Source: an uncultured Bacteroidia bacterium
GTDB taxonomy: Bacteria > Bacteroidota > Bacteroidia > Bacteroidales > Prolixibacteraceae
DNA: 39,412 bases
Assembly: GCA_903927965.1 (NCBI GenBank)
Contig: CAIYPA010000047.1
Location: forward strand, 1-39,412
Reading direction: 5' to 3'
Part shown: one piece after another, positions 2,805 to 39,412 of the stretch
Layout of the letters: every line of letters begins with the position of its first letter
Position numbering within the stretch: the stretch's first letter is position 1
The notes under the pieces: generated by a model
Databases searched by the model: none
What the model saw: the letters and a program-made list of their open reading frames with translations, nothing else
Told to the model about the DNA's origin: nothing
Translations under genes and position numbers: made by a program

Positions 2805-5720
2805 ATGAATAATAAACTTCCATTCGATCAATTGGCTCAATTAATTGATGGTGAATTATATACAGATCACACAAAAAGGATAATCTATTCAACGGATGCT
2901 TCATCCTACCGGGAATTGCCACAGGCAGTTACACTTCCACGCCATAAGGAGGATGTGAAATTGATCCTTGAATTTGCCAGGGAACACAAAACCTCAGTGA
3001 TTCCTCGTGGGGCAGGAACTTCTTTGGCTGGACAGGTTGTTGGTCCGGGAATCGTGGTCGATATCTCAAAATATATGGACCAGATCCTTGAATTCAACCG
3101 GAACAAACGGTGGATTGTCGTTCAACCTGGCGTAAACCTCACTGAATTAAATATTTACCTAAAGCCCTATGGATTGCAGTTCGGACCTGAAACATCCACA
3201 ACCAATCGATGCCGCTTGGGCGGGATGCTTGGCAACAATTCCTGTGGTCTAAGGTCATTGATTTATGGAAGCGTACGTGAACATGTCCTTGAAGTGGAAA
3301 CCCTGTTGGCCGATGGTTCGGAAGCCGTATTTGGTCCACTTACCAAAGCTGAATTCAATGCGAAATGTGATGGGTATCCCGAAAAATTGGAGACGAAAAT
3401 CTATCGGCAAATAAGAGAAGTCCTTTCAGATCAAAAGACCCGCGACAAAATCACCGAAGTTTACCCGGAAGCTTCCGTTACACGCCGGAATATGGGGTAT
3501 GCCGTTGATTTTTTGATGGATACCGATCCATTTACAAACAATGGGAACACCTTTAATTTCTCCAAACTTCTTGCTGGTTCGGAAGGGACTCTAGCTTTTA
3601 CGACAGCCATCAAGTTAAACCTGATCCCGCTGCCTCCCAAAATCAAATGTGTGGTACCGGCCCATTTTGCATCACTTGAAGAAGCCCTTTATGCCAATAT
3701 CATCGTTCTGAGGCACCACCCATCAACAATAGAACTGATGGATGATATTATTATGAATTGTACCAAAGAGAGCCTGTCGATGCGTGAAAACAGGTTCTTT
3801 ATCGAGGGCGACCCTAAGGCAATCCTGATGATCGAGTTTGCCGCCGATACGCGTGAAGAGATTGAATTAGTCCATACTGCAATGGTACATGATCTTAAAG
3901 ATGCTGGTTATGGTTACCACTTCCCGTTGGTTTTTGGTGACGACCAGATCAAAAAAGTGTGGGAATTGAGGACGGCTGGGTTGGGCTTGCTTTCCAATAT
4001 TCCGGGCGATAAGCGAAGTACTACAGTGATTGAGGATACAGCGATTTCACCTGAGAAACTACCGGAATATATCGCTGAATTTAAAACTGTTATTGCCAAA
4101 TATGGATTAAGCTGCATTTACTATGCCCATATTGCGACCGGTGAATTGCACCTGAGGCCACTTCTAAACCTTAAAGACCCTGTAGATCAAAAAGTGTATG
4201 CAGATCTTGCACAGGATGTTGCAGTTTTGGTGAAGAAATTCAGGGGGTCGTTGTCGGGTGAACATGGCGATGGACGGTTGCGCGGATCGTTTATCCCATT
4301 TATGTTTGGGGAGGAGATCTACAGTTTGTTTAAAGCGATAAAAAAGACCTGGGATCCATGGAACGTATTAAATCCCGGCAAAATTACAGATGTGCCGCCC
4401 ATCACCCAAAATCTCAGGTACGAGCTTTCGAACCGCTACCCTGAAATTTCGACAACAACGGATTTCTCATCAACCCATGGATATCTTCGTGCTATTGAGA
4501 TGTGCAACGGCTCAGGTGATTGCCGAAAATCTGAAATTGTTGGTGGGACTATGTGCCCAACCTATATGGCAACGCGTGATGAAGACAAAACCACACGTGC
4601 CAGGGCCAATATGCTCCGTGAATTTATGCACCGGAGAGAAAATGACAACTCACTGTTTCACAAGGAAGTATATAAAGTCCTTGATCTCTGCCTGTCGTGC
4701 AAAGGGTGCAAAGGCGAATGTCCGTCGAACGTGGATATGGCCAAGATCAAAGCTGAATTTTTGCAGCAATATTACGACGAAAATGGGATACCTTTCAGGT
4801 CAAGGCTGATTGCCTATTTGCCAAGATTGGGAAAATTGGCTATGGCTTTTCGTCCGATTACCAATTACTTCCTTAATCAACCACGGATAAACAAGTTAAT
4901 AGGTTTTCATCCCAACAGGAAAATACCAGGGTATTCAGCCCAAAGTCTAAGAAATTGGGATGCAAAACACAAAAGCAAACCTGGAAGAAATGGGAAAGTT
5001 TACCTTTTTGCCGATGAATTTACCAACTTCCAGGAATCGGAAATCGGGATCAAAGCTATCCTTCTTTTGAACAAGCTGGGATATGAAGTGATCATTCCTA
5101 AGCATCGTGAAAGTAGCAGGACCTATCTTTCCAAAGGGCTTGTACGCGAAGCAAAGAAAATTGCCATTTCCAATGTTCTTATACTTAAAGATATAATATC
5201 TTCAGAAACCCCTTTGATCGGTATTGAACCTTCAACGATCCTTACCTTCCGGGACGAATATCCCGAATTGGTGGATGCCTCCTTGCGGGTTGAAGCAATT
5301 GAACTTGGTAAAAACGCCCTTTTGTTCGATGAGTTTTTTGTCCGCGAAATGGAGAAAGGGAAGATCTCCGCATCGCAGTTTACCGATAAGAAAAGGGAGA
5401 TCAAATTGCATGCCCACTGCCAGCAAAAAGCGGTAGCTTCATCCCTATCCACACGCAGGATGTTGACTTTGCCTGAAAATTATACAGTTCAGGAATTGAA
5501 AACCGGATGTTGTGGAATGGCCGGGTCGTTTGGGTACGAAAAGGAGCATTATGAACTTTCGATGCAGATAGGTGAAATGGTGCTATTTCCAGAAGTCCGC
5601 AAAAGTGCCGTTTCAACAATAATTACAGCTCCTGGAACAAGTTGCAGGCACCATATCAAAGACGGGACAGGTAAATCGGCTGTTCATCCGATTGAGGTGA
5701 TGTACGAGGCGGTTATTTAA
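2805..5720 (+). CDS. FAD-linked oxidase/Fe-S two-domain dehydrogenase (D-lactate/glycolate dehydrogenase-like)
   Basis: The protein has 971 residues from ATG 2805. That start was chosen because MNNKLPFDQLAQLIDGEL begins the conserved fold and the upstream extension is AT-rich and not conserved in type. The N-terminal half is a VAO/PCMH FAD domain (PRGAGTSLAGQ, then LGGMLGNNSCG), followed by the FAD oxidase C-terminal domain ending LSGEHGDGRLRG. The C-terminal half has ferredoxin-like cysteine clusters (CNGSGDC with MCPTY, and CLSCKGCKGECP). It also has two CCG-type motifs for a heterodisulfide-reductase-like cluster (HAHCQQKA, then TGCCGMAGSFG). This is the GlcD+GlcF type fusion. It oxidises a 2-hydroxyacid such as D-lactate or glycolate and passes electrons through Fe-S centres to the quinone pool. 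The substrate is not set by motif. Its stop overlaps the convergent toxin gene by 8 nt. Confidence 0.92.
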   Translation: MNNKLPFDQLAQLIDGELYTDHTKRIIYSTDASSYRELPQAVTLPRHKEDVKLILEFAREHKTSVIPRGAGTSLAGQVVGPGIVVDISKYMDQILEFNRNKRWIVVQPGVNLTELNIYLKPYGLQFGPETSTTNRCRLGGMLGNNSCGLRSLIYGSVREHVLEVETLLADGSEAVFGPLTKAEFNAKCDGYPEKLETKIYRQIREVLSDQKTRDKITEVYPEASVTRRNMGYAVDFLMDTDPFTNNGNTFNFSKLLAGSEGTLAFTTAIKLNLIPLPPKIKCVVPAHFASLEEALYANIIVLRHHPSTIELMDDIIMNCTKESLSMRENRFFIEGDPKAILMIEFAADTREEIELVHTAMVHDLKDAGYGYHFPLVFGDDQIKKVWELRTAGLGLLSNIPGDKRSTTVIEDTAISPEKLPEYIAEFKTVIAKYGLSCIYYAHIATGELHLRPLLNLKDPVDQKVYADLAQDVAVLVKKFRGSLSGEHGDGRLRGSFIPFMFGEEIYSLFKAIKKTWDPWNVLNPGKITDVPPITQNLRYELSNRYPEISTTTDFSSTHGYLRAIEMCNGSGDCRKSEIVGGTMCPTYMATRDEDKTTRARANMLREFMHRRENDNSLFHKEVYKVLDLCLSCKGCKGECPSNVDMAKIKAEFLQQYYDENGIPFRSRLIAYLPRLGKLAMAFRPITNYFLNQPRINKLIGFHPNRKIPGYSAQSLRNWDAKHKSKPGRNGKVYLFADEFTNFQESEIGIKAILLLNKLGYEVIIPKHRESSRTYLSKGLVREAKKIAISNVLILKDIISSETPLIGIEPSTILTFRDEYPELVDASLRVEAIELGKNALLFDEFFVREMEKGKISASQFTDKKREIKLHAHCQQKAVASSLSTRRMLTLPENYTVQELKTGCCGMAGSFGYEKEHYELSMQIGEMVLFPEVRKSAVSTIITAPGTSCRHHIKDGTGKSAVHPIEVMYEAVI

Positions 5721-6012
5721 ATTTCAGCTTTCGTGGATCTTGTCGGTTATCAAATAATCTTAGGACATCAATGGATTCAAGATTTTCCAGAAAGTACAAG
5801 GAATTGTGTTTAGTCAGAAGACATCGTCTAACCTTTTTGTTTTTTTTTGCCAATGGAAACTGCTTCGGATTCCTTAAAATCAGTTCTATTGATCTATCCG
5901 TCGTTTCAATAAAACTTTGAACGACTTTGTCGTTCCAGTTTATTTGAAGATAATCAAGAATGGAAATAAAATCTTTCTTCGATAATGGCGACCAAATTAT
6001 CTTTTTATACAT
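5713..6012 (-). CDS. RelE/ParE family toxin
   Basis: The protein has 99 residues from ATG 6012: MYKKIIWSPLSKKDF, an ILRNPKQFP turn, then VRRCLLTKHNSLYF and LRLFDNRQDPRKL. This is the ParE/RelE plasmid-stabilisation toxin fold. The start was chosen because it begins at the usual family N-terminus and overlaps the antitoxin stop by 8 nt. ParE-type members poison gyrase and RelE-type members cleave mRNA on the ribosome. The residues visible do not decide which applies. It is translated after its antitoxin, as in typical type II modules, and its 3' end overlaps that of the dehydrogenase gene. Confidence 0.85.
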   Translation of the reverse strand: MYKKIIWSPLSKKDFISILDYLQINWNDKVVQSFIETTDRSIELILRNPKQFPLAKKNKKVRRCLLTKHNSLYFLENLESIDVLRLFDNRQDPRKLKFK

Positions 6013-6253
6013 TTGAGTATTTCTTCCGGATTTCAACCATAACCTCGTCATGTGGAATACCTTTACCCGAATCAATTTCATTGATAGCATCCAATATTCC
6101 CTGCCACTGTTCATCGGTCAATTTACCCGTATCATTTCCTCTATTCTGATCATTTATGAAATTTGATAAAACTCCATAAAGCTCCTCTAACCGATTCTTT
6201 TCCAAAGAATCAATTTGTCGAAATATTTTCAGCTTTAAATCGGATACTGTCAT
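6005..6253 (-). CDS. Antitoxin partner of the ParE-like toxin
   Basis: The protein has 82 residues (MTVSDLKLKIFRQIDSLEKN start). It is predicted to be helical and acidic, with the pattern ELYGVLSNFI, then LTDEQWQGILDAI and HDEVMVEIRKKY. The latter resembles the C-terminal toxin-binding tail of Bacteroidota ParD-like and addiction-module antitoxins. No classical ribbon-helix-helix can be confidently placed. It is assigned mainly by context: directly upstream of and overlapping a ParE-like toxin by 8 nt on the same strand. Such antitoxins neutralise the toxin and usually autorepress the operon. Confidence 0.75.
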   Translation of the reverse strand: MTVSDLKLKIFRQIDSLEKNRLEELYGVLSNFINDQNRGNDTGKLTDEQWQGILDAINEIDSGKGIPHDEVMVEIRKKYSNV

Positions 6254-6283: not shown

Positions 6284-8305
6284 TTATGAATTTTTCCCAC
6301 AATGCTTTTGAATCAGCTCCAACAACAACAATTTGTTGATCGGTTTTGAAATATAATCATCACATCCGGCGGCCAATGCTTTTTCCTCGTCGCCTGACAA
6401 CCCAAAAGCTGTTTGCGCTATAATGACGACTTCCTTGTTAAATTGCCTGATTTGCCTTGTTGCTTCATATCCTCCCATTTCGGGCATTTGAATATCCATC
6501 AGGATCAGATCAAGATCGGGGTTTTGCCTACAGGCTTCTATGGCTTCCTGACCGGTCCGAACCTTAATAATCTGCTGTGATAACTTGCCGACTATAATGT
6601 TGATAAGCAATCCTGAGGTGATATCATCTTCTGCAATCAGGATTTTTAATCCTGGACTATTTTTAATCAGCTGTTTTTCAATTTCCCTATAAGTAACAGC
6701 ACCTATGATTAACGGCTTTACTCTGGGTTGGATACGGTATGGCATGGTGAAATAAAATGTTGAACCTCTACCCTCTTCACTTTCAACTCCTATTCGGCCA
6801 CCCAGCATTTCAACATATGATTTGGTGATGGCAAGTCCAAGTCCTGCTCCCTGCATGGCCTTCTTGTCTTCGATATCGGCTTGTATAAACCTTTCAAAAA
6901 TAGCCTCCTGGCGGTCTTTTGGAATGCCCATACCTGTGTCTTTCACATAAAATTGTAGAGACGCACGGCCGTGCGTCTCTACATGGCCGTGCGTCTCTAC
7001 ATGGCCGTGCGTCTCTACATGGCCGTGCGTCTCTACATGGCCGTGCGTCTCTACAACATCATAACCTATTTCAATTGAACCTTTATCAGTGTATTTTATT
7101 GCGTTCTTAACAAGGTTCATTAAAATGGCATAAAGCTTTTCGCTATCCGTTTCAATCACAGCTTCATTCGAAGGGAGGGTGTTTTTAAGGTGCAACTTCA
7201 TCCCTTTGGCCTCGACCTCAGGTTTGAAGAAAGTATAAATGTATTCGGTTTGTTCGTTGATATTCGAATTCTTCAAATTCAATTTCATCACGCCTGCCTC
7301 TATTTTCGAAATATCGACTATGTCATTGATAATGTTAAGCATACGGGCACCGCTCTTTTCGATGATCCGGATATATTCTTGTTGCTCTGCGCCGGTAAGG
7401 CCCGGTTCTTTCAACAACTCCGCAAAACCGAGGATCCCGTTCATGGGTGTCCTGATTTCGTGGCTCATGTTGGCAAGGAAGGCGGATTTCAACCGGTCAC
7501 TCTCTTCTGCTTGTTCCTTCGCTTTGATGAGCTCCATGGTCAACTTCTTACTTTCTGTAATATCCGTTTTAATCCCTAAAAAGTTCGTTATTTCACCCTT
7601 TTCAGAAAATAGGGGGGCAATACTTGCAGATTCCCAATACAATTCGCCATTTTTCTTCTTGTTGTGGAATTCGCCGAACCATTCCTTTCCAGAAAGGATC
7701 GTCTCCCATAAAAAGGCATAATCTTCATTGGATTTTTCACCGGAACCGAATATCCTGGGATTTTGTCCAATTAACTCTTCTGAACTATATCCCGTCAATT
7801 TCAAAGTGGCGGTATTCACGTATTCCATTTGCCCGTTGATATCGGTTATAATCACAGAGTTTGGACTTTGATCTACTGCCCTCGACAGTTTACGCAGTTC
7901 GGTTTCCGCATCATGCCTTGCCTTGTGTTCAAGCAATTCATTGTAGGCTCTGGAAATTGCAGGGATCAACCGTTCCATCTTGTGCTTAAGCACATAATCT
8001 GTAGCACCGTTCAACAACGACTCAATTGCAGCATCTTCACCCATCGTCCCACTGACAAAAACAAAAGGAATTTGTGGATAATGGGTTTTAGCCAACAATA
8101 GGGCCTCCGTTCCACTATAATCGGGTAAGTAATAATCGGACAGGATAATATCGATTTTCTCAGTTTTGAGGATCTCAATGTAATCTTTTTCATTATCCAC
8201 AAAAAAATATTCAAACTTTATATTGGCTTTTTTCAATGCTGCCTGTACCAAATGAGCGTCTGATGGATTGTCTTCAAGATGAAGCAACTTAATCTCACTT
8301 TCCAT
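6284..8305 (-). CDS. Hybrid histidine kinase, REC-PAS-HisKA-HATPase-REC
   Basis: The protein has 673 residues from ATG 8305. That start is chosen because MESEIKLLHLEDNPSDAHLV is a standard receiver N-terminus. An upstream ATG at 8335 would overlap the preceding gene. Domains: receiver (about 1-125, phospho-acceptor D57 in LSDYYLPD), PAS (about 145-265, SVIITDINGQMEYVN), HisKA (H282 in ANMSHEIRTP), HATPase_c (NAIKYT, DTGMGIP, GAGLGLAI) and a C-terminal receiver (D604 in LILMDIQMPEMGG). It is soluble, with no membrane segment. It is third in the operon with the ATPase-kinase fusion and is likely a phosphorelay element. Residues 418 to about 451 are an in-frame VETHGH tandem repeat inserted in the ATP-binding domain. 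Confidence 0.93.
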   Translation of the reverse strand: MESEIKLLHLEDNPSDAHLVQAALKKANIKFEYFFVDNEKDYIEILKTEKIDIILSDYYLPDYSGTEALLLAKTHYPQIPFVFVSGTMGEDAAIESLLNGATDYVLKHKMERLIPAISRAYNELLEHKARHDAETELRKLSRAVDQSPNSVIITDINGQMEYVNTATLKLTGYSSEELIGQNPRIFGSGEKSNEDYAFLWETILSGKEWFGEFHNKKKNGELYWESASIAPLFSEKGEITNFLGIKTDITESKKLTMELIKAKEQAEESDRLKSAFLANMSHEIRTPMNGILGFAELLKEPGLTGAEQQEYIRIIEKSGARMLNIINDIVDISKIEAGVMKLNLKNSNINEQTEYIYTFFKPEVEAKGMKLHLKNTLPSNEAVIETDSEKLYAILMNLVKNAIKYTDKGSIEIGYDVVETHGHVETHGHVETHGHVETHGHVETHGRASLQFYVKDTGMGIPKDRQEAIFERFIQADIEDKKAMQGAGLGLAITKSYVEMLGGRIGVESEEGRGSTFYFTMPYRIQPRVKPLIIGAVTYREIEKQLIKNSPGLKILIAEDDITSGLLINIIVGKLSQQIIKVRTGQEAIEACRQNPDLDLILMDIQMPEMGGYEATRQIRQFNKEVVIIAQTAFGLSGDEEKALAAGCDDYISKPINKLLLLELIQKHCGKNS
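6955..7054 (-). repeat. 18-nt tandem repeat expanding a 28-nt palindrome, inside a kinase gene
   Basis: The 28-nt palindrome at 6955-6982 (arms GTAGAGACGCACGG and its complement) is followed by four exact 18-nt units, ATGGCCGTGCGTCTCTAC, at 6983-7000, 7001-7018, 7019-7036 and 7037-7054. On the coding strand each unit reads VETHGH. The array sits between the N-box strand and the DTGMGIP box of the HATPase domain, where related kinases in this window have only a short loop. Confidence 0.95.
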
Positions 8306-8318
8306 ATATTTGTATAAT

Positions 8319-8756
8319 TTATTCGGGAATTTCATTCACCACGACCCAGTATTGGCCCAATTCCTTTACGACCAACATAAAATCATTGATATTTACCGGT
8401 TTAACAACAAATGAATTGGCCCCATTGTTGTAACATTCCGTCAGATCGTGGCTATCGCGCGATGAGGTCAACATAATAATCGGAACCTTGTTGAAATTTG
8501 GATCAGCCCGGATCACCTTTAATACTTCAATTCCATCCATAAAAGGCATTTTTATATCGAGCAAAATAAAGATAGGTATATCACTCTGATCATCAATGTA
8601 CTTATTCCTTTTGTATAAGTAATCGATCGCATCTTCACCGTCTTCTGCAACGACAATCTCATTCCCAAAACGGGAATTTTGAAGCGAGGCTTTAATCAAT
8701 GTCACATCATTTGCACTGTCATCGATGAGAAGAATTTTCTTAATGTTTGATTTCAT
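8319..8756 (-). CDS. Single-domain response regulator, Rcp1-like
   Basis: The protein has 145 residues and is a lone receiver domain with no output domain. The acidic pair D12/D13, phospho-acceptor D67 ([11 protein letters not shown]), T97 (IIMLTSS) and K119 (VVKPVN) are all present. The spaced loop between the second strand and D67 is longer than in CheY. This is the hallmark of Rcp1-like receivers that partner with phytochrome-type kinases. Its start codon overlaps the stop of the ATPase-kinase gene as ATGA (8753-8756), implying coupled translation and making it the obvious phosphate acceptor for that kinase. The downstream hybrid kinase begins 13 nt after its stop. Output may be through protein contacts or onward phosphotransfer. 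Confidence 0.93.
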
Positions 8757-11700
8757 ATTTCTGGTTTATAAGATATTAACTGATCAGGCAGAGAAAAATA
8801 AAAAGTTGCACCCTTTTCAATTTCACCTTCTGCCCAGCAACGGCCTCCATGGCGGGCTATAATCCGATGGATATTGGCCAATCCGATGCCAATTCCTTCA
8901 AAATCGCGGGGTTTATGAAGCCTTTGAAATACATTGAACAATTTACTGGAATATTTCATGTTAAACCCTGCTCCATTGTCCTTTATATAAAATATTGTTT
9001 CATCGTTTTCTTTAAAACTACCAAACTCTATCGTTGCTTTTTCTTTTTTACCTGTGTATTTTATTGCATTTGAAATCAGGTTTATCCAAACCTGGCTAAG
9101 GAGTTGATGGTCAGCCCAGGAATCGGGAAGATCGTTTATCAATATTTTGATATCCCGGCTTGTAATTTCAGGTTGATAAAGCTCCAATGCTTTGTTTATC
9201 AATTGAATTGTATTTATTTTTACATTATGGAGTTCCGAACGGTTCAATCGTGAAAAAGAGAGGAGGGCATCGATCAGTTTACCCATCTCATCCGAAGATT
9301 TAACAACTATGTCAAGGTAACCAAGTTCTGCTTTCGTTAATTCAGTCACTTTGCTTTCAAGGAAAAGGCCAATAAACCCACTGATATGGCGCAATGGAGC
9401 CCTCAGGTCGTGCGAAACCGAATACGAAAAAGCCTCAAGTTCCTTGTTGGCAGACTCAAGCTTTTCAGTGCGTTCGATAACCCGAAGTTCCAATGACTGG
9501 TTCAGTTTTATGATCTCCTCCTCTGCCCTTTTTCGGTCTGTGATATCCACAAAAGTTGCCAGGAAGTTATCGTTGATGGCAGTTCCTGAAATAAAGATTT
9601 CACGAATACTTTCATCTTTGCAGGTCATATGATAAACATCGGATTTGATATCAGAATTTGTAACTACTGCATGATTTAAAGTAGAATCCCAACTTTTAAT
9701 AACCTGTTTCCGGTATTCAGCATCAGGGTAAGCCTTCTCCCACCATTCTGATAATGAGGGTATTTCTCTTTCACTGAAGCCAAAATCAGATATAAAACGT
9801 TTGTTCCTGTATGTTATCATTCCATTTTTATCAACATAGCACACAGGCAAAGGATTGCTTTCCATCAAACGGCGAAATTTGGCTTCGCTTTCGAGCAAGG
9901 TCTGTTCTACTTTTTTGCGCTCATTGATCTCATCCATTAATGACTTATTGGCAACCATCAACTCCTCTGTTCGTTCTTTTACCCGATGTTCAACTTCATC
10001 ATAGGCTTTTCTCAATTCAGCTTGTGTGTAAATCAATTTATCTTTCTCCTTTCGCAATTCCTCGTTTACCCTCCTTAGTTGATTGGGACTGGGTATTGAT
10101 AGCAACCTTGGAAGAACAGGCCAGACAACGACTGCTGTTGCCACAGAAACCATAGCACAAATCGCATCAACTGTTGCCTGCCACCAGTTGACTTCCCACC
10201 AAAGGCCGATTACATGGATAATATGTGTAGTCCCACATGCCAGAATGAACAGTCCGAAAAGAAAGATGATCCAGGTAAATGGCATATCCTTTCGTTTACG
10301 GACGAAAATGATCAGGAAAAATGGGATAGAGGCATAGGATATGGCGATCAAGGCATTGGAAATGGCCATGACCATCATTAAAAGAGGTGTCATAGACCCA
10401 GGATTTGCACCCAAAATTTCCATTTTGCCTGGCATAAAGACCATTGGTCCAATGATCAGAAGGGCCAATGCAACTGCCGGGGCTATAATACGGGGAATAA
10501 GTGCCACTGCCTGAGCGACAAGAGATTTTTTATGTGAAAACGATTGGACTTTGTATGCCCTTAACCGAAGACTGTTTGTAACGACAAATATGGAGCTGAA
10601 AGCCATCGCCCCGGCAGCAAACATCGGGCTCAACAAACCATATGCAGCAATAGGGATCAATGCCACATTATAAAACAAGGCCCAAATCAGGTTTTGAACA
10701 ATCGTTTGGGAGGTACCCCTGGATAAGGAAATTGCACGACCTACCCCGGAAACATCTCCACCAATCAGTGTTATTCCAGCGGCTGCAATTGCAATATCTG
10801 TGCCGGTACCAATTGCAATTCCCACATCTGCCTGGGCAAGGGCAGGTGCATCATTGATCCCATCACCGACCATGGCTACAATGGGACTTTCATAATTTCC
10901 CAAAGAATTGGACGATTGAAGTTCTTTGATCGCACTTGCTTTATCACTAGGGAGAACTTCTGCCATGACACGTTCGATGCCAACCTGCCGTGCTATGGCA
11001 TCGGCGGTACTTTGATTGTCGCCTGTGATCATGACCACGTCCAAACCAAGTTGGTGCAAATCACTGATGGCTTCCATAGTCCCTGGCTTAACAGTATCGG
11101 CGAGACTCAGGATTCCAACCGGAATGGCTGGGTCATTTTCATCAATTGGCTTTATTGAGACAATCAGTGCTGTTTTTCCCTGGGTTTGAAGATTCAAAAC
11201 CTTCATTTGCATAGAGGTGGTTTCGATGCCTTCATTCTGCATCATCCTCAGGTTCCCGATAAGGACAATTTTGTCTTCAACAATAGCCCGGATTCCAAAA
11301 CCGCCAAAAGAACGAAATTGCTTCGGCTCGGACAGAAGGATTCCCCTTTCAACAGCTGATTTTACAATTGCCTGTCCCAAAGGATGTTCTGAACCCCGTT
11401 CAGCACTTGCGGCTAAAAAGAGTACCTGTTCTTCATCCAAAATACCAAGCGTTTCGATATCTGTAACATCTGGCTTTCCAGTGGTAATTGTGCCTGTCTT
11501 GTCAAAAACGACAATATTGACTTTCCCGGCACGCTCCAGAATTTCACTGTTCTTAAATAAAATCCCGTTTTCAGCTCCTTTGGATGTCCCAACAATGATT
11601 GCCGTTGGTGTTGCCAATCCAATGGCACAGGGGCAAGCAATTACAAGTACTGCAATTGCATTGATCATGGCCCCGGTCCATGCGATCTGAGCCACGTAAA

Positions 11701-12979
11701 TCCAACCCAAAAAAGTAAAAAGTGCAATCCCAATGATAATAGGGACAAAGTATTTCCCAATCTGGTCAGTGAGCTGCTGAATTGGTGCCTTGCTTCCCTG
11801 AGCTTCCCGAACAAGCCGTAGGATCTGCGCCAGGGCTGTATCTTTCCCGATCTTTGTGGCTTCAAACCTGATCATGCCTTCACGGTTGATTGACGCCCCA
11901 ATCACTTCATCCCCCGGGCCTTTGCTAACCGGCATCGATTCGCCTGTGAGCATTGACTCTTCAAAAGCGGAACGACCTTCGCAAATAATGCCATCGACCG
12001 GAACTCTTTCACCAGGACGCACAACAATTGTATCACCAATAATAACCTGATCTATTGGTAGTTCACTTTCAATTCCATCGCGGAAAACTGAGGCGGTTTT
12101 TGACCGTAAACCTGCCAATGCCCTGAGCGATTCGGACGTTTTGCCCTTTGCACCTGCCTCCAGATATTTGCCGAGCCTGATCAGTGTGATGATGGCGGCT
12201 CCGGTTTCAAAATAAACATTGGGATCGCTGATCACGCCAATTGTGACCAAAAGACTGGAGAAATAGGCAAATGAAGAACCCATCACGATCAGTACATCCA
12301 TATTGGCACTTCCATACCGAAGGCTTTTGTAAGCACCAAAATAAAACTGACCTCCTACAACAAACTGAACAATCGTAGCTGCAAAAAGCATCACAAACTG
12401 ATCGTATTCAAATCCAACCAAACGGAAATCGCGCATCATACTGAATACGATGAGCGGAATTGTGAAAACCAGGCCGATGATCAATAACCTCTTTTGCCTT
12501 TTCATTTCAGAAGCCTGAAAATCCGATTCCACATCTTCGATTTCTTCTGAACCGCACACCTGAATAATGTCAAATCCAGCTTTACGAACTACTCCTGCAA
12601 GTTCAGCCACACTGGTCATTCCGGGAATGTATTCCAAACTCAACCTTTCGTTTCCAAAACAGACAGACGCGTTAAGCACACCATTTTGTTTATTTAGTAT
12701 TTTTTCCAATGTTAATGCATCTGTATTGTCCTGCAGACCGGTTACAGGCAAATCGAGTTTACCGGTAGCTATCCCATATCCAACCCTATTCACTGCTGCA
12801 ACAATCTCTTTTTCGCTCAACAACAAAGGATCAAAACGTACTGTAAGCCTTTCGGTCGCAAATTCAACATTGGCATCAATAACTCCCTTCAGTTTCTTGA
12901 CATTCGATCCGATAGCAGATGCACAATTCGTACAGGTTAAACCTGTTACAGGCATTGTGATAATCTTTGGTACGCTCAT
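8753..12979 (-). CDS. Cu(I) P1B-type ATPase fused to an ETR1-like copper-site membrane domain, PAS and histidine kinase
   Basis: This is one uninterrupted 1408-residue frame. Residues 1-70 are an HMA copper-binding domain ([10 protein letters not shown]16/C19). Residues 74-140 are a second HMA fold without its CxxC. Residues about 160-811 form a complete P1B-1 ATPase: TGES 345-348, CPC 449-451, DKTGT with D493, H532 in [15 protein letters not shown] at 705-712, plus ALFYN and MAFSS in the last two helices, typical of Cu(I) pumps. An extra helix lies at about 830-849. Residues about 868-962 match the ETR1 ethylene-binding domain, with N875, Y882, I885, P886, I912, C915 and H919. Then come a coiled coil, PAS (about 1040-1165), HisKA with H1190 ([10 protein letters not shown]) and HATPase_c ([22 protein letters not shown]). 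It heads an operon with an overlapping Rcp1-like receiver gene. Copper transport and kinase activity follow from the families. The coupling between them is inference. Confidence 0.96.
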
Positions 12980-26381: not shown

Positions 26382-29300
26382 CTATATATCAGATACTAAT
26401 ACAGGGATCGTCAAGGTAAATGTACTTCCTTTTCCTGGCTCTGAAACAACAGTTAATTCACCTTTGAGGATTTTGGCTATTTTAAGAGATATGGCCAGTC
26501 CAATACCAACCCCACCATAACTTCTTGTTACCGTATCATCAACCTGTCTGAAAAAATCGAAAATGATATCTTGTTTGTCTTTTGGGATTCCAATACCAGT
26601 ATCTTTAAAGTAATATGTAAGATAGGTTTTATTATCAAACCTGTAACCAAATTCGATTGTTCCCTCCTGGGTAAATTTTAGTGCATTTTTAAAAAGGTTT
26701 GACAATATCTGGTTGATTTTACTTCTGTCGGCTGTGATGTAATCATGCAAGCAGTTTGTATCTGGTTTATAGATCAATCTGAGTTGGTCGTTCTTTGAAG
26801 AATTTTTTATCAGTTCGTCGAATGAAGCTTTATTCTCTATAAAATGATCGACAAGGCTAAATGTTTGGTTCCTGAGTTTGATGTTTTCATTTTCAACCAA
26901 GGCCAGATCGAATACATCTTCAATTATGGAAAGCAGGTTTTTACCACTTTGATTGATAAACTTAGCATAATTTCGACTCTTCTGAAGTGTAGCATCATCC
27001 GAAAGGATCAAATCACTAAATCCAAGAATATGGTTAAGTGGAGTGCGCAACTCATGGTTCATCGTGGCGAGAAAAGCTGTTTTTAACCTGTTGCTCTCTT
27101 CTGCTTTTTCCTTTGCCGCAATTAACTCCTCACGATTTTTCCGAATTTCTGTGATATCGATGGCAACACCAATCATTGCAATTTCATGGTTATTTTCGTC
27201 CTTGATACTGGATGTCGAAAGTAAAATCGGAAATATCTGACCATTCTTGCGTTTGTTCATCATTTCTCCCCGCCACCCCCGATTGGGTAATTCCTCAAAT
27301 ATATCACGGACATGCTGGTTTTTTAACTCAACTGGACGGAAGATATTGATGTGCTGGCCAATCAGTTCATCTTCAGAATATCCATATATTTTTAACAATG
27401 AGTCGTTTACATAGATGATCAAATCCTCGCTGTTGGTGATGGTGACACCTTCACTAATGCTCTCCAACGAATGAGCCAGAAGTTTAATTTTTCTCTCTGT
27501 TGCTTTCTTTTCGCTAATGTCGCGAATAATCCCTATTGCGTACCACCCATCCGGAAATTCAAGTGCAGAAAGGGAAAGTTCGATATCGATCGCTTTTCCA
27601 TTTTTACATAGTGCTTCCAATTCAATAGTTTTCCCGATTGCATTACCCTTTCCAGTTTTTAGAAAAGATTTATAAGCTTGATTATGTGATTCATGGTAAT
27701 TTTCTGGAGCTAAAAATGAATGGAGATTTTTACCGATAACCTCCTCTCTGGAAAATCCGAAGATCTTTTCTGCGGCTGGGTTAAAGAACTGGATGTTCCC
27801 AAGCGGATCCATCATCAGAATCCCATCTTGGGCTGTCATAGTTATCGCTTTTATCCTGGCTTGTTCGGCTTTCAACAATTCTTCAGCCCTTTTGCGTTCG
27901 GTAATATCCATGATCTGCACTAGGTAATCAAAATTATTCTGCTCACCTTTCATGATAGGGGTTCCCTGAATATCGAGTGAGACTTTGCCACTTCTGGAAG
28001 TCGGATAGAGGTTCAGTTTTTTTACAAGATCAAAATCGAATTCAGTTTCATATCGGATAGGCAACCCTTTGTAAAGCAATTCTTTCAGGGCATTTGAAAT
28101 GTTAGGGTCTTCAAATAGTGAAAAGCCGCGAACAACATCGGCAGATTGGATCCCAAACAAGGCACAACAAGCCGGGTTGACATCAATAAGGCGACCTTGT
28201 TCATTGTACAATTCAATCGCAATCGGGGATTTGATGAAAATATTTTTGAAGCGTTCTTCACTGTTTTTCAATGCCTCCTGTTGTTTCCTTTGTTTTGTAA
28301 TGTCATCAAAGATCCCCAAGACCCCAATAATCTTACCTTGCTCATCGTGATAAGGAACCTTGGTAGTTTGAATCCAGTGCTCAACCCCGCCAATCACATA
28401 AGGTTCAACTATATTTTTTAATTTTCCTGTAGCCATTACGGTTTGGTCGTCAGCCCTGTAACCCTCGGCCAACGCGGCAGGGACAAACTCAAAATCAGTT
28501 TTACCAATAATTTGCTCAGGTGTAATCCCAAGGTCATTTGCATAATTGGCATTACAGGAGAGATAGACCGAATTGATGTCCTTGATAAAGATCCGTTGAG
28601 GAAGGTGTTCAACAAGACTCCGGTTCAGGATTACACTTCTTATCAGTTCCATTTCAATCTCCTTTCTCGCGGTAATGTCCTGAATGACTCCATAAACAAT
28701 CCGGTTTTCCTGATCATAAGTGGCAACCGACTGGATATCTTTAATTTCGCCTGTATCGACAGTTTTTATCTTAAATTCAAGATGATACGATTCGTTCCCA
28801 TTGATCAGGTTTTCTATGGTAGCATCAAGCAATGGTCGATATTCAGAAAGTGGAATATTTCTAATAACCTCATAATCAAATATATTACTATTTACTCCAT
28901 AAATTTTTGCTGCGCCGACAGAAGCAATCACTTTGCGGGAATCAAGATGCAATTCCCAGTTTCCCGATTTTGAAGCCAGCTCGGCCCTATTCAACCTTAA
29001 TTCATTTAACCGGAGTTCTTCCTCAGTTGTTTTACGTTCAGTAATGTCTGTTGAGATTACCTGTATCCCCAAAACCTTTTTCCCGGAATCCTGAATACGT
29101 GTATAAATTGTATGAAACCATTTCGGACCATCAGGCAGAAAAATTTGATCATCATATTCCTGAAGGATATCCAAATCAGCCGCCATTTTTATTCGGTACA
29201 GCAAATTCTCTGCATCCGGTTTTGAAAAGATATCATAAACCGACCTACCAACAAAGTCAACTGGTTTTCCGTTCTGATAATTTGCCCTTAGCTGATTGTA

Positions 29301-29918
29301 TGAAATAACAACACCTTCAGTCGTATAGTAGCCAATTCCGACTCCTGCACTTTCATAGAGTTGCCGATATCTTTGTTCACTTTCCCTAAGTGCTTCCTCA
29401 GTTTCAATACGCACTACATTTTCAGCCCTTAAATCGTTTATCAGACCGAGCATTTCGATTTGGTTTAGCTCAAGTTCAGAAGTGCGTTCGGCTACCAGTT
29501 TTTCAAGCCGTTCATGCTGAAACTGTTTTTGACTGTTTGCTGATTTAATTTTAACCATTGCATTGATCTGGGCAATCAATTCAATTTCGTCGATGGGCTT
29601 GGTAAGAATTGCCTCAGCACCAATCTCAAGTGCTTTGATACGGGTATCCCTTGTTTCCCTTGTCGCAGTAATGAAAACCACAGGAATATCCCGAACTTTG
29701 TCGATCTGTTTCAATCGATGGCAAACTTCAAAACCATCCATTCCGGGCATTACGATATCCAAAAGGATTACGTCAGGATCAATTTCAACGGCCAGTTCAA
29801 TCCCTTTCGTTCCATTCAATGCAGGGTAAAAAACCGATTCTGAAAAAGCATCCTGGATCATGGCTTTCAAAGAGATCAGGTTGTCATTATTGTCGTCAAT
29901 AGCAAGGATTTTTGACAT
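26382..29918 (-). CDS. REC-multiPAS-histidine kinase (1178 aa)
   Basis: An N-terminal receiver (about 1-125, D54 in VILLDIVMPGMDG, lysine in LTKPIDE) is followed by a short coiled coil. About six PAS/PAC units follow between residues 180 and 935, each ending in DITERK- or DISEKK-type linkers, for example YYTTEGVVISYN, IFIKDINSVYLSCN and GILMMDPLGNIQFFNPAAEK. HisKA has H955 (FLATMNHELRTPL), and HATPase_c has NALKFT, DTGIGIP and GGVGIGLAI. There is no membrane helix, so sensing is cytosolic, perhaps of haem-, flavin- or small-molecule-type ligands. The receiver at the front suggests that another kinase gates it. It is closely similar in the catalytic core to the 33880-38301 and 38384-39412 kinases. 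Confidence 0.93.
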   Translation of the reverse strand: MSKILAIDDNNDNLISLKAMIQDAFSESVFYPALNGTKGIELAVEIDPDVILLDIVMPGMDGFEVCHRLKQIDKVRDIPVVFITATRETRDTRIKALEIGAEAILTKPIDEIELIAQINAMVKIKSANSQKQFQHERLEKLVAERTSELELNQIEMLGLINDLRAENVVRIETEEALRESEQRYRQLYESAGVGIGYYTTEGVVISYNQLRANYQNGKPVDFVGRSVYDIFSKPDAENLLYRIKMAADLDILQEYDDQIFLPDGPKWFHTIYTRIQDSGKKVLGIQVISTDITERKTTEEELRLNELRLNRAELASKSGNWELHLDSRKVIASVGAAKIYGVNSNIFDYEVIRNIPLSEYRPLLDATIENLINGNESYHLEFKIKTVDTGEIKDIQSVATYDQENRIVYGVIQDITARKEIEMELIRSVILNRSLVEHLPQRIFIKDINSVYLSCNANYANDLGITPEQIIGKTDFEFVPAALAEGYRADDQTVMATGKLKNIVEPYVIGGVEHWIQTTKVPYHDEQGKIIGVLGIFDDITKQRKQQEALKNSEERFKNIFIKSPIAIELYNEQGRLIDVNPACCALFGIQSADVVRGFSLFEDPNISNALKELLYKGLPIRYETEFDFDLVKKLNLYPTSRSGKVSLDIQGTPIMKGEQNNFDYLVQIMDITERKRAEELLKAEQARIKAITMTAQDGILMMDPLGNIQFFNPAAEKIFGFSREEVIGKNLHSFLAPENYHESHNQAYKSFLKTGKGNAIGKTIELEALCKNGKAIDIELSLSALEFPDGWYAIGIIRDISEKKATERKIKLLAHSLESISEGVTITNSEDLIIYVNDSLLKIYGYSEDELIGQHINIFRPVELKNQHVRDIFEELPNRGWRGEMMNKRKNGQIFPILLSTSSIKDENNHEIAMIGVAIDITEIRKNREELIAAKEKAEESNRLKTAFLATMNHELRTPLNHILGFSDLILSDDATLQKSRNYAKFINQSGKNLLSIIEDVFDLALVENENIKLRNQTFSLVDHFIENKASFDELIKNSSKNDQLRLIYKPDTNCLHDYITADRSKINQILSNLFKNALKFTQEGTIEFGYRFDNKTYLTYYFKDTGIGIPKDKQDIIFDFFRQVDDTVTRSYGGVGIGLAISLKIAKILKGELTVVSEPGKGSTFTLTIPVLVSDI

Positions 29919-30011
29919 TCACTTTATTGTAATAAATTCTTAATATTTAATTTTGAAATTACTGATTTCTTTGGAATCCTGCATATGAAAACCACATTTT
30001 TTTTGCATTAA

Positions 30012-32993: not shown

Positions 32994-33846
32994 ATGGTTT
33001 AAAATTTCTGAATATTCCCGAAGAAAAAAACTCCTCAGTATAATTGTTTTCCTTTACGATTTCCCTCTCTGCCTCACCTGTAATCAACCAGGCATTTGAG
33101 TTCAGGCAATTCCCAATTTTGGCCAGCATACGATACCTATATTCCGGTTTATAATAAAAAAGGACATTACTGCAAATTATCATGTCGAAATTCCCATAAA
33201 TGCTGGCTTGTGGGCAAGCACCTTCCTCTGACGCCAGGTCAAACACTGAAAAATCAATATATTGCTTCAAATCAGAAGATATTGCATAGGCCTCAAAATG
33301 ACCATAATATTCCATCTGATTTACCCTTGTAAAATAGGTATTCAGCCGGTTTATATTGACTTTACCCAAAGAAGAGACCTGATAAATGCCTTTTTTTGCA
33401 ATCTCAAGTTCAGATTGGTTAATATCGGTGGCAAAAATCCGGCACGATAAATCAAGATGATGGATCCGGATCAGTTCGTCAATCAGAATAGCGATGCTGT
33501 AAGGTTCCTGACCTGAGGCACAGGCTGCCGACCAGATGCGTATTTCCTTTTGTTTTTCCTTTCTTTTTTTTTCGATAAGTGACGGAAGCACAATTTGCTC
33601 AAGATAGGCAAAAGTAAGGGTGTTACGAAAAAACTCGCTAAATGTATTGTTAAGGGAATTTACTAGGGAATGTGTCTCTTCTTTGTTGGATTTCAATAAA
33701 TTACAATATCCATTAAGGGAATTGGACGAAGTTTTTGACATTCGGTTTTGAACACATTTCATAAAAAAAGCCTCTTCAAAACCATTGGTGTCAATTCCAT
33801 TAAATTGGAACAATAAATCTCTGATAACAGCTACCCCGTTGTTCAT
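32974..33846 (-). CDS. CheR-type protein-glutamate methyltransferase
   Basis: The protein has 290 residues. It has an N-terminal helical CheR_N domain and a SAM-dependent methyltransferase domain. The SAM motif is IRIWSAACASGQEPYSIAIL, then CRIFATDINQSELEIAKKG and FDMIICSNVLFYY. These are close to the canonical WSAACSTGEEPYS, FATDI and CRNVLIYF. CheR methylates glutamates on chemoreceptors using S-adenosylmethionine. No CheB, CheA, CheW or complete chemoreceptor gene is visible. It lies 33 nt after a PAS kinase gene and overlaps the 4HB-HAMP kinase by 20 nt, implying that a kinase or its helical linker is the substrate or partner. That role is inferred from context. Confidence 0.92.
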   Translation of the reverse strand: MNNGVAVIRDLLFQFNGIDTNGFEEAFFMKCVQNRMSKTSSNSLNGYCNLLKSNKEETHSLVNSLNNTFSEFFRNTLTFAYLEQIVLPSLIEKKRKEKQKEIRIWSAACASGQEPYSIAILIDELIRIHHLDLSCRIFATDINQSELEIAKKGIYQVSSLGKVNINRLNTYFTRVNQMEYYGHFEAYAISSDLKQYIDFSVFDLASEEGACPQASIYGNFDMIICSNVLFYYKPEYRYRMLAKIGNCLNSNAWLITGEAEREIVKENNYTEEFFSSGIFRNFKPYENKSH

Positions 33847-33879
33847 AAAAACCGATAGTATTACGTAATTATCATATAT

Positions 33880-38301: not shown

Positions 38302-38383
38302 TTGCTAAATAATTTAATATTCCGATTATGTTTCCAACCAGGAAGAGCCAATCAATAGTCGAGTCTAATATCAAAAAAAGAGA

Positions 38384-39412
38384 TTAACCTATTGCATCGG
38401 TCATCTCTACGGGAATTGTCAAAGAAAATGTACTCCCCTTGTCTGGTTCTGAGATGACACCAAGGTGCCCTTTAAGAATCTTTGAAATTTTCATCGCAAT
38501 GGAGAGTCCAATCCCAATACCACCATAAACACGGGTCGGGGAATCGTCACCTTGCCTGAAAAAATCGAAAATCAATGATTGTTTTTCCTTAGGTATTCCA
38601 ATACCGGTATCCCTGATATAGAATGTAAGCGTTCCTTTTGTCTGACTTTGAAAGCCATATTCGATTGTTCCTTTGTTCGTAAACTTGATTGCATTTTTAA
38701 ATAGATTGATCATTATCTGGTTTACTTTGCTCCGATCAGTTGTTAAATACAACGAAAGAAGTTGTGCATCAGGTTTATAGATCAAATTTATTTGTTCCGA
38801 CTTTCCCGATGTCTGAAAAATCTGATCGAAAATAGATTTATTCTCCATAAATTGATCCATTAACCTGAAAGTCTGCAACCTCAGTTTGATATTGGAATGT
38901 TCGGCAAGGGCCAGATCAAATACATCTTCCACAATCGAAAGCAACTCTTTTCCGCTGAAGTTGATATTTGTGGCAAATGAAACATTGTCGTCGGGCATGG
39001 CACCAGATATGATCAACTCGCTAAAACCAAGAATATGGTTAAGCGGTGTCCGCAATTCATGGTTCATTGTTGCAAGGAATGCAGACTTTAAGCGGTCGCT
39101 CTCCTCAGCATTATGTTTTGCCACAACAAGTTCATCCCTATTCTTTTTTTGAATGTAGGCAGCACCAAATGTATTTGCAGCAGCACTTAAAAGCCTTTCT
39201 TCGGTCGATGTCCAGGTCCTTTTTTTCAGGCAATCGTCGAACCCGACAAATCCCCAGAATTTATTGCCAATAATTACCGGGGCAACAAGTATGGACAAAA
39301 TTCCCTGGCTTTCAAGTACCAACTTTTCGCCCTGTGGAAAATCGCTGATATTGCCAACAATGACTTTCCCTTGATTAAGTACTTCATACCAACGTTGAAA
39401 TGCCGTTTCATA
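38384..39412 (-). CDS. GAF-histidine kinase, 5' end outside window
   Basis: The frame is open to the window edge, so about 343 residues of a longer protein are visible. A GAF domain C-terminal part (RWYEVLNQGKVIVGNISDF, then SILVAPVIIGNKFWGFVGFD and TWTSTEERLLSAAANTFG) leads through a short helix to HisKA (FLATMNHELRTPLNHILGF) and HATPase_c (FKNAIKFT, DTGIGIP, GGIGIGLSI). The Arg-Trp and WGFVGFDD patterns are typical of GAF units fused to PAS kinases. It lies 82 nt upstream of the 1473-residue kinase on the same strand. The catalytic core is a close paralogue of the other two PAS kinases in this cluster. Confidence 0.92.
   Translation of the reverse strand, partial: YETAFQRWYEVLNQGKVIVGNISDFPQGEKLVLESQGILSILVAPVIIGNKFWGFVGFDDCLKKRTWTSTEERLLSAAANTFGAAYIQKKNRDELVVAKHNAEESDRLKSAFLATMNHELRTPLNHILGFSELIISGAMPDDNVSFATNINFSGKELLSIVEDVFDLALAEHSNIKLRLQTFRLMDQFMENKSIFDQIFQTSGKSEQINLIYKPDAQLLSLYLTTDRSKVNQIMINLFKNAIKFTNKGTIEYGFQSQTKGTLTFYIRDTGIGIPKEKQSLIFDFFRQGDDSPTRVYGGIGIGLSIAMKISKILKGHLGVISEPDKGSTFSLTIPVEMTDAIG

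Follow-up and report, generated by a model that had tools for sequence, protein, structure and literature searches.

The fused gene and its neighbors

The window, a 39,412-nucleotide stretch of Bacteroidota DNA, carries on its minus strand a single open reading frame (ORF; 8753..12979) that starts with an ATG at 12979, ends with a stop codon finishing at 8753, and encodes a protein of 1408 aa without an internal stop. The domain order of this protein is HMA, degenerate MBD-like segment, Cu(I) P1B-ATPase, extra transmembrane (TM) helix, ETR1_N, PAS, HisKA, and HATPase_c, and every Pfam domain scores at or above its own curated cutoff. A sequence-only reading of the locus, which gave no strand, had described a copper pump, an ETR-type domain, PAS, and a kinase in one polypeptide, and the translation, Pfam, and NCBIfam all agree with that description. 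A transporter and a kinase are joined in one chain. Residues 811 to 868, where a break would have spoken against that reading, are free of stops and frameshifts, and 14 further distinct proteins likewise continue across this junction without interruption.

In total, 15 distinct fused proteins, the window protein and 14 other single-frame relatives, were obtained from Bacteroidota genomes of at least two classes, with one relative lying on a contig of 5,257,441 bp and another on a contig of 1,895,574 bp. All of the genomes searched belong to this phylum, that of the window, and the contig scan, for which six short window-protein patterns served as probes, can therefore pick up close relatives only. 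Two incomplete proteins were left out of the fused set, L035, with the frame broken inside the ETR part, and L056, which stops behind the ATPase close to the end of its contig, and the identical pairs L033/L062 and L034/L064 were each counted once. In plasmids, 19 records matched residues 809 to 976, none over 80% of the query, and no fusion was seen in the 11 records fetched; with the whole protein as the query, none of the best 5,000 records covered 80%.

The C-terminal part of the window protein contains a PAS domain (residues ~1033 to 1148; 9536..9883, minus strand), called by PF13188 and PF00989 with scores that reach or barely exceed the cutoff (PAS_8, PF13188, residues 1033 to 1087, 23.1 bits against 21.8), and a histidine kinase (8780..9436, minus strand) composed of HisKA (residues 1182 to 1246, with an SHDLR box; PF00512, 37.2 bits) and HATPase_c (residues 1290 to 1400; PF02518, 71.6 bits). 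No SLC5 or STAC domain was found in the 1408-aa protein by Pfam. The region behind the ETR module varies freely among the relatives, with different numbers of PAS domains and a GAF domain in L059. Both HisKA and HATPase_c were detected in nine of the ten relatives scanned with Pfam; L034, one of the 15, has neither and lacks a kinase in the same frame.

A single-domain response regulator of 145 aa (8319..8756, minus strand; PF00072, 74.6 bits) overlaps the end of the fused gene with its start by 4 bases, and a hybrid kinase of 683 aa with receiver, PAS, HisKA, and HATPase_c domains by Pfam lies at 6284..8335 on the same strand. The response regulator has like-placed counterparts at L030, L040, and L059 (Pfam) and at L031, L041, and L067 (start of translation), and the hybrid kinase, with 649 to 665 aa, at L030, L040, L059, and L067 (Pfam) and at L031 and L041 (start of translation). 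Receiver and hybrid kinase come after the fused gene in 7 of the neighborhoods viewed, which cover 12 of the 15 fused proteins; Pfam was run on a subset of them. Among the ten window neighbors scanned (405 to 21404), Pfam recognized no copper chaperone or copper regulator. In genomes G184 and G373, which share one genus code, cytochrome bd oxidase genes are located directly upstream of the fused gene (L040 by Pfam and L041 by translation starts), the only 2 of the 12 neighborhoods with such genes. The fused pump is the sole match above the TIGR01511 cutoff in 6 of 11 carrier genomes. An ordinary Cu ATPase is also present in the other five, and a second P1B-like pump (~800 to 840 aa; 266 to 299 bits, below the Cu cutoff) occurs in 6 of the 11, including the window's genome, so the fused pump need not be the only copper exporter of its carriers.

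Pump, junction, and ETR module

The first HMA domain (residues 9 to 68; 12776..12955, minus strand; PF00403, 61.1 bits) contains a CxxC motif (TCTNC) that is kept in all 15 fused proteins. An alignment of these proteins also delimits a second MBD-like segment (residues 77 to 141; 12557..12751, minus strand), which has no CxxC in any of them and for which we infer an HMA fold from length and position only. The ATPase core (residues 160 to 811; 10547..12502, minus strand) ends its set of P1B-1-type motifs with GAMAFSS and comprises an E1-E2 ATPase domain (residues 291 to 470) and a hydrolase domain (residues 488 to 718) in Pfam. It scores 613 bits with TIGR01525 (cutoff, 346) and 564.2 bits with the Cu-type model TIGR01511 (cutoff, 397). 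In P1B-1 pumps, the signature residues are CPC in TM6, YN in TM7, and M plus SS in TM8. CPC, DKTGT, SEHPLGQ, and GDGINDAP are all present in the translation, and CPC, DKTGT, HP, GDGxNDAP, LFYN, and GAMAFSS occur in all 15 fused proteins, with TGES in 14. By profile and motifs, the ATPase part is a P1B-1 Cu(I) ATPase, and Cu(I) transport is predicted.

An extra, ninth TM helix (residues ~820 to 848; 10436..10522, minus strand) joins the ATPase to the ETR module. It is placed by hydropathy, with a peak at residues 831 to 849 in the window protein and corresponding peaks in L061, L040, and L059, the three relatives included in the profiling, and it appears in both AF2 models, each of low confidence. 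With mean pLDDT values of 44.7 for residues 142 to 1005 and 61.1 for residues 800 to 1005, the AF2 models, made from seven sequences, are too poor to judge the nearness of the pump exit and the ETR site. The helix is followed by a methionine ladder (M849, M853, M863, M868, M869, and M871; 10367..10435, minus strand), each residue of which is present in 15 of 15 fused proteins. These 23 residues (849 to 871) hold 6 of the 16 invariant methionines of residues 160 to 1005, and the ladder is predicted to run from the extracytoplasmic side to the start of ETR helix 1. The sequence-only reading had proposed that copper donor and acceptor are covalently joined. That they meet on the copper-exit side is supported by the predicted topology, in which the extra hydrophobic helix would place the ladder and the ETR module at the pump exit, and by the six invariant methionines of this stretch.

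The ETR1_N module (residues 867 to 962; 10094..10381, minus strand) scores 106.9 bits with PF25487 (E value, 6.5e-31; cutoff, 27 bits) and 113.7 bits in the genome scan; residues 844 to 976 had no match among solved structures up to an E value of 10. Its residues C915, H919, H922, N875, and D938 correspond to C65, H69, position 72, D25, and K91 of ETR1, and Cys65, His69, His72, Asn25, and Asp91 are invariant in the 15 fused proteins. The seven ethylene-binding residues of ETR1, which we take to be D25, Y32, I35, P36, I62, C65, and H69, are kept in the fused proteins with one exception, since Y32, I35, P36, I62, C65, and H69 are retained in 15 of 15 and position 25 is N. The profile together with Cys65/His69 identifies an ETR-type membrane domain, in which ethylene binding is only putative.

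For comparison, 38 aligned stand-alone ETR1_N domains were used, including the imperfect L094 (X at position 25) and L014 (a stop given as X). Left out of this set were L029 and L095, which exceed the Pfam cutoff and were missed by the tblastn step, 8 of the 19 plasmid records, and hits below the cutoff (L049 to L051, which have no alignment, L096 to L101, and L103). On inspection by eye, Cys65 is absent from L029 and most of the motif from L095, and neither has the fused residue set. The polar pair Asp25-Lys91 is N/D in all 15 fused proteins, whereas 28 of the 38 stand-alone domains have D with K or R and none of the 38 has N/D. His72 is found in 1 of the 38, compared with 15 of 15. Within the stretch of at most 20 residues that precedes position 25, every fused protein has four methionines and no cysteine, whereas all 38 stand-alone domains have at most two methionines and 35 have a cysteine. 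Position 25 is D in 33 of the 38 and N, S, or X in the other five; the loss of D25 by itself is not unique to the fusion.

Seven ETR1 residues are given as required for ethylene binding in passages of PMC6586836 and PMC6944256, mutation of D25 or C65 eliminates ethylene binding in AtETR1 in a passage of PMC11819568, and the copper site is named as Asp25, Cys65, and His69 in a passage of PMC12643061, so the fused site is without one published copper residue. In a 2026 review (PMC13012798), a passage that gives no residue number states that changing a conserved TM-domain aspartate, which I take to be Asp25, to asparagine leaves a functional receptor with ~100-fold lower ethylene affinity. Olefin binding is thus not lost on sequence grounds, because only one of the seven residues differs and the published Asp-to-Asn receptor still functions. 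Asp91 might stand in for Asp25.

Evolution of the fused proteins

In the ATPase tree, the fused rows form one side of a branch with SH-aLRT support of 100, apart from ten ordinary pumps, and in the ETR tree they form one side of a branch with support of 97. Both trees come from quick searches, and their midpoint roots serve display only. Long branches were flagged for L069 and L112 in the ATPase tree and for 11 rows in the ETR tree, where the placement of L083 next to the fused proteins may be spurious. In L066 (1288 aa), a kinase and an ETR part share one frame with a short stretch between them. In the three pairs for which all or nearly all segments were usable, the ETR segment had the lowest dN/dS of any segment (0.021, 0.013, and 0.026), compared with 0.051, 0.048, and 0.067 for the ATPase and 0.085, 0.041, and 0.119 for the linker and extra TM helix. 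A fourth pair, the window protein and L034, was mostly saturated, with values of 0.022 for the ETR segment and 0.165 for the linker. The junction and the ETR module are under purifying selection.

A proposed copper transceptor and the closest known systems

The reading that best explains these features, and one to which we give about even chances, is that the protein is a copper transceptor, in which a P1B-ATPase that exports Cu(I) carries its own receptor kinase and the ETR site reads copper. The pump would move Cu(I) to the extracytoplasmic side, and the extra helix would bring the chain out so that the six-Met ladder and the ETR module face the pump exit. The methionines would then relay Cu(I) in cis to Cys915/His919, where His922 and Asp938 would serve as additional ligands or belong to the second shell. 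Filling of the ETR site, or pump flux, would alter ETR helices 2 and 3 and, through a coiled coil, the PAS domain and kinase, from which phosphate would pass to the receiver and the hybrid kinase encoded next to the fused gene. In this view, the module would have been retuned from olefin binding to reading copper itself. Arguing for this reading are Cys65, His69, His72, Asn25, Asp91, and the six methionines shared by all 15 proteins, the N25/D91 pair found in none of the 38 stand-alone domains, the low ETR dN/dS, the tree grouping, the genomes in which the fused pump is the sole Cu match (6 of 11), the neighborhoods with receiver and hybrid kinase (7 of 12), and the ~100-fold Asp-to-Asn effect (PMC13012798). 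Against it stand the six retained ethylene residues, the missing Asp25, the lack of a recognized neighboring chaperone or regulator, the other pumps in the carriers, the kinase-free L034, and the five stand-alone domains without D25.

The sequence-only reading had suggested a self-metallating ethylene/olefin receptor. In such a protein, the main task of the pump would be to load the ETR module with Cu(I) in cis, the counterpart of the role in trans proposed for RAN1 toward ETR1, and the kinase would answer ethylene or a similar small ligand, with an affinity below that of plant receptors. Such a receptor would account for an ETR1_N score far above the cutoff, the six residues including Cys65 and His69 in every fused protein, the strongest constraint falling on the ETR module in the three usable pairs, and the functional though weaker Asp-to-Asn receptor (PMC13012798), and a separate Cu ATPase in 5 of the 11 carriers could do the bulk export. 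However, N25 plus D91, the added His72, and the Met ladder suggest a changed job for the module, D25 mutation eliminates binding in AtETR1 in the passage cited above (PMC11819568), and in 6 of 11 carriers no other pump exceeds the Cu-ATPase cutoff. The claim is weakened, and we consider it a serious but less likely rival of the transceptor; the alternative that the sequence-only reading had also offered, exit-side copper read by a kinase, fits the fused-only residues better.

Cu(I) thiolate/imidazole sites can bind ligands such as oxygen, CO, and sulfide, and this chemistry, with the cytochrome bd genes upstream of the fused gene in G184 and G373, would suit a sensor that depends on Cu(I) and responds to redox state or to a different small molecule, with the pump only supplying the cofactor; with bd genes so restricted in number and genus, we think this improbable. 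We attach similarly little probability to the view that a regular copper pump and a regular ETR-like kinase are tethered for co-expression only and pass no copper between them. Both halves do have complete stand-alone motifs, and what follows the ETR module is free to vary, down to the loss of the kinase, but the fused-only Met ladder at the junction and the fused-only ETR core residues are invariant across two classes. A chimeric assembly or missed frameshift might be suspected in a source genome of 584 contigs with 4.41% estimated contamination. This explanation is rejected and is almost certainly wrong, because 14 other distinct proteins, some on large contigs, carry the same single-frame fusion; purifying selection across the junction also argues against it.

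If the transceptor reading holds, the pump and the sensor for the pumped metal may be one molecule. We suggest, more tentatively, that the kinase would count pump output, because each exported copper would pass a receptor on the same chain, and that this would be the first ion-motive (P-type) ATPase with a covalent kinase readout, obtained through an ETR fold rewritten from D25/K91 to N/D with an extra His and a Met ladder. The swap of Asp25/Lys91 to Asn/Asp in all 15 proteins is in addition a natural experiment on the role of that pair.

The sequence-only reading knew of no described protein of this architecture, and none appeared among the open-access literature matches listed; transporter-kinase fusions as a kind are already known. 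CbrA and the SLC5/STAC histidine kinases, also transceptors, likewise join a transporter and a histidine kinase in one polypeptide (PMC13022988), but their transporter is a solute symporter with a STAC linker, whereas the fused protein has an ATP-driven metal pump, which a receptor module with a metal site separates from the kinase. Passages of PMC10654040 ask whether eukaryotic P1B pumps are "transceptors" and state that prokaryotic sequences lack the relevant terminal domains; the fused proteins, as prokaryotic P1B pumps with a C-terminal receptor kinase, open that question to direct tests. With CopA and other P1B-1 ATPases (TIGR01511), they share an HMA domain with CxxC, CPC, DKTGT, HP, GDGxNDAP, and, in the final TM helices, YN and MAFSS, and they differ in the extra TM helix, the receptor kinase, and the CxxC-free second MBD-like segment. 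CusS and CopS have the metal site in a periplasmic domain and a kinase unlinked to a pump (passages of PMC11213822 and PMC10141476); like them, the fused protein would respond to copper outside the cytoplasm by phosphorylating a receiver.

With ETR1, SynEtr1, and AzoEtr1 (PF25487), the fused proteins share the three-helix module with Tyr32, Ile35, Pro36, Ile62, Cys65, and His69, and AzoEtr1 likewise has PAS and a kinase after it (passage of PMC11819568). However, the fused module has D25 changed to N, K91 to D, H at position 72, and a Met ladder replacing the N-terminal Cys, and it lies behind a pump instead of at the N terminus. In Arabidopsis, RAN1, a Cu(I) P1B-ATPase, supplies the ETR1 copper site, and direct RAN1-to-ETR1 transfer is set against release into the endoplasmic reticulum (ER) lumen in passages of PMC12586476, according to which the third MBD of RAN1 also lacks CxxC, like the second MBD-like segment here. 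RAN1 and ETR1 are two proteins of the plant ER membrane, whereas the fused protein is one bacterial chain. With donor and acceptor fused and methionines on the predicted exit side, how ETR1 gets its copper becomes directly testable, and the protein, if the transceptor reading is true, would be a natural, fused model of the exit-side RAN1-to-ETR1 copper hand-off.

Anatomy and relatives of the fused protein

The fused gene lies on the minus strand at 8753-12979 (ATG at 12979, stop ending at 8753) and encodes 1408 amino acids (aa) with no internal stop. Pfam recognizes HMA (residues 9-68), E1-E2 ATPase (291-470), hydrolase (488-718), ETR1_N (867-962; 106.9 bits against a cut-off of 27), PAS (1033-1087), HisKA (1182-1246), and HATPase_c (1290-1400) domains, and NCBIfam assigns the pump half to the copper-translocating ATPases (TIGR01511; 564 bits against a cut-off of 397), which confirms the sequence-only reading of one open frame carrying a Cu(I) pump, an ETR region, PAS, and a kinase. 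A genome scan revealed this frame as the sole ETR1_N match of the window's genome. The protein has 120 matches in that genome, mostly to its kinase parts, and several further long frames resembling kinases (1178, 993, 1473, and 312 aa) lie at 26382-39322.

Six short patterns from the protein, scanned against contigs of 84,980 species, retrieved 10 loci; 7 (L030 to L036), all from Bacteroidota metagenome-assembled genomes, are relatives with pump and ETR region, and 3 match in the kinase only. Overlapping genome sets were searched with the ETR1_N model. Matches occurred in 21 of 395 whole genomes of the phylum sample, three of them fused (the window and genomes G184 and G373, both of another class), in 9 of 393 genomes of the order sample (6 over the cut-off, 5 of these fused), and in 21 of 395 of the class sample (15 over the cut-off), where the window alone had a frame longer than 641 aa. 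A whole-protein search of 100 genomes of the window's family found the fused protein in the window and four others (66-74% identity to the window protein over the best segment); in one further family genome, G853, the pump is close to a contig end. Within the window's genus the protein is patchy, since 2 of 13 genomes in the family sample carry it.

The alignment set comprised 15 distinct fused proteins, including that of the window. One fused relative sits on a 5,257,441-bp contig, and L034 and genome G805, whose family code is that of the window, encode an identical fused protein. Locus L056 ends after the ATPase, and L035 loses its frame within the ETR part, which is spread over three reading frames (L035:2508-3235) through decay or assembly error. 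L034 has PAS domains and no kinase in frame; after its pump-ETR-PAS chain (L034:8872-13369) comes a distinct frame of 860 aa, HisKA-like by pattern match only, as if the kinase lay in the next gene. In the fused proteins of L036 (~2300 aa) and L065 (~2450 aa), long arrays of PAS domains separate the ETR module from the kinase.

Origin, selection, and genomic context

In quick, unrooted trees with long branches flagged, the fused rows formed one side of a branch for both the ATPase (15 fused and 10 ordinary pumps; SH-aLRT, 100) and the ETR module (15 fused and 38 stand-alone domains; SH-aLRT, 97). The simplest reading is a single fusion event, retained afterwards, across two classes. Among the matches listed, the window ATPase is ~50% identical to a plasmid-borne Bacillota CopA and ~39-46% identical to ordinary pumps from its own family. 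Segment-wise dN/dS was estimated by a simple counting method for four pairs. For L030/L031, L040/L041, and L060/L061, respectively, values were 0.021, 0.013, and 0.026 in the ETR module, the lowest computable segment in each pair, 0.051, 0.048, and 0.067 in the ATPase, and 0.085, 0.041, and 0.119 in the linker plus extra helix. In the window/L034 pair, three segments were saturated, the ETR module gave 0.022 and the linker 0.165, and the kinase value is meaningless because L034 lacks a kinase.

A 145-aa receiver gene overlaps the end of the fused gene by four bases and is followed by a 683-aa hybrid kinase. This order recurs in 7 of 12 neighbourhoods, some based on Pfam (window, L030, L031, L040, L041, L059, and L067; L033, L060, and L066 fall outside the 12). 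L036 and L065 have one gene of the pair, L034 has different kinase and receiver frames, L061 has neither gene, and L032 ends near a contig end. The 10 window neighbours scanned included no recognizable DNA-binding regulator and no known copper gene. Two genomes of a different class encode cytochrome bd oxidase immediately upstream of the fused gene (L040:1812-4204, by Pfam; L041:11222-13614, by translation starts); a putative copper reader adjoining a copper-free oxidase is suggestive. In the window, a 133-aa protein matching a ParE-type toxin (5713-6114; PF05016, 30.4 bits, cut-off 23) adjoins the signalling genes.

The fused pump is the sole match over the TIGR01511 cut-off in 6 of 11 carriers (the window's genome G000, G805, G822, G838, G493, and G556); the other five (G184, G373, G648, G857, and G452) have one ordinary Cu ATPase besides. 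Two points speak against a simple role as the cell's copper exporter: six genomes (G000, G838, G805, G184, G373, and G493) hold a second P1B-like pump (266-299 bits, below the cut-off), which may or may not carry copper, and G556 is 82% complete.

Residues and topology of the ETR module

Positions are given in ETR1 numbering. Y32, I35, P36, I62, C65, and H69 are retained throughout the 15 fused proteins, all of which have N25, H72, and D91. Among 38 stand-alone domains, D25 occurs in 33, together with K or R at 91 in 28, the N25-D91 pair in none, and H72 in one (L083, a Deinococcus plasmid). Two stand-alone rows have N25, both with Leu91, and S25 is found in two more, once with D91 and once with L91; a missing D25 is therefore not by itself special to the fusion. 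The gap-free alignment of positions 69-91 among bacterial sequences, the plant sequence lying outside it, makes D91 well placed relative to these. In the stretch leading up to position 25 (at most 20 residues), Cys occurs in 35 of 38 stand-alone domains, with at most two Met; all 15 fused proteins lack Cys in this stretch and have four Met. Met 849, 853, 863, 868, 869, and 871, each invariant in the fused proteins, form a ladder within 23 residues, whereas residues 160-1005 as a whole contain 16 invariant Met, these six included.

Other variants were observed among stand-alone domains. L086 (Rhodovastum atsumiense plasmid RHOApb), which is not one of the fused proteins, combines Ser25 with Asp91, so that its acidic residue too lies on helix 3 rather than on helix 1. 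A second group of 14 ETR-tree rows (L012, L014, L016, L020, L022, L063, L088-L094, and L102), many beginning RWxCGxW, has Asp72, with position 91 occupied by Leu or Arg and in one row by Lys. L029 matches ETR1_N over the cut-off (51.5 bits) without the copper ligand Cys65.

P1B pumps have eight transmembrane helices with both ends cytoplasmic, and the ETR1 N-terminus lies outside; an ETR module joined directly to the pump would therefore be upside down. Eight helices are likewise given in PMC12586476. Hydropathy revealed an extra hydrophobic helix between pump and module, peaking at 831-849 in the window and matched in L061, L040, and L059, all those profiled. This helix would correct the ETR topology and place the Met ladder outside. 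AF2 helices at 820-848, 865-895, 901-926, 932-959, and 965-1004 (mean pLDDT, 61.1; 44.7 in a longer model) lend this topology weak backing.

Possible copper or olefin sensing, and known precedents

The sequences establish the anatomy and its conservation; how the protein works goes beyond them as an inference. Judged from sequence, chances are about even that the fused protein is a copper transceptor, a Cu(I) pump with a built-in receptor kinase. Cu(I) from the pump would be picked up by the Met ladder and passed to C915/H919 (ETR1 65/69), with H922 and D938 (72/91) joining this site or surrounding it. Its occupancy, or else the flux of the pump, may then shift the helix bundle and, via the coiled coil beyond residue 965, affect the kinase.

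An olefin receptor is a less likely but serious rival reading. The sequence-only reading proposed a self-metallating ethylene/olefin receptor, and the six kept residues, C65 and H69 among them, agree with it; N25 in place of D25 weakens it. PMC13012798 describes a salt bridge between a conserved transmembrane aspartate and a conserved lysine, and reports a receptor with asparagine for this aspartate that is functional with ~100-fold weaker binding. The two residues are here taken to be D25 and K91, named as a polar pair in PMC11819568. According to the latter paper, mutating either D25 or C65 abolishes binding in AtETR1. These statements differ, and on either account high-affinity ethylene sensing seems less likely in the fused protein than in stand-alone receptors, although D91 could take over the role of position 25. 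PMC12643061 counts Asp25 with Cys65 and His69 in the copper site; as a copper site, too, that of the fused protein may therefore be altered.

In agreement with the sequence-only reading, which knew of no described protein of this kind, the titles and abstract starts listed by searches of open-access literature contained no fusion of a P-type ATPase with an ETR module or a kinase, and word searches within PMC6944256, PMC11213822, PMC10654040, and PMC11970713 gave none either; "undescribed" is provisional. The pump-ETR-kinase combination and its residue set are provisionally new, and the individual parts are already known. CbrA, according to PMC13022988, likewise carries transporter and kinase in one chain, as the fused protein does.
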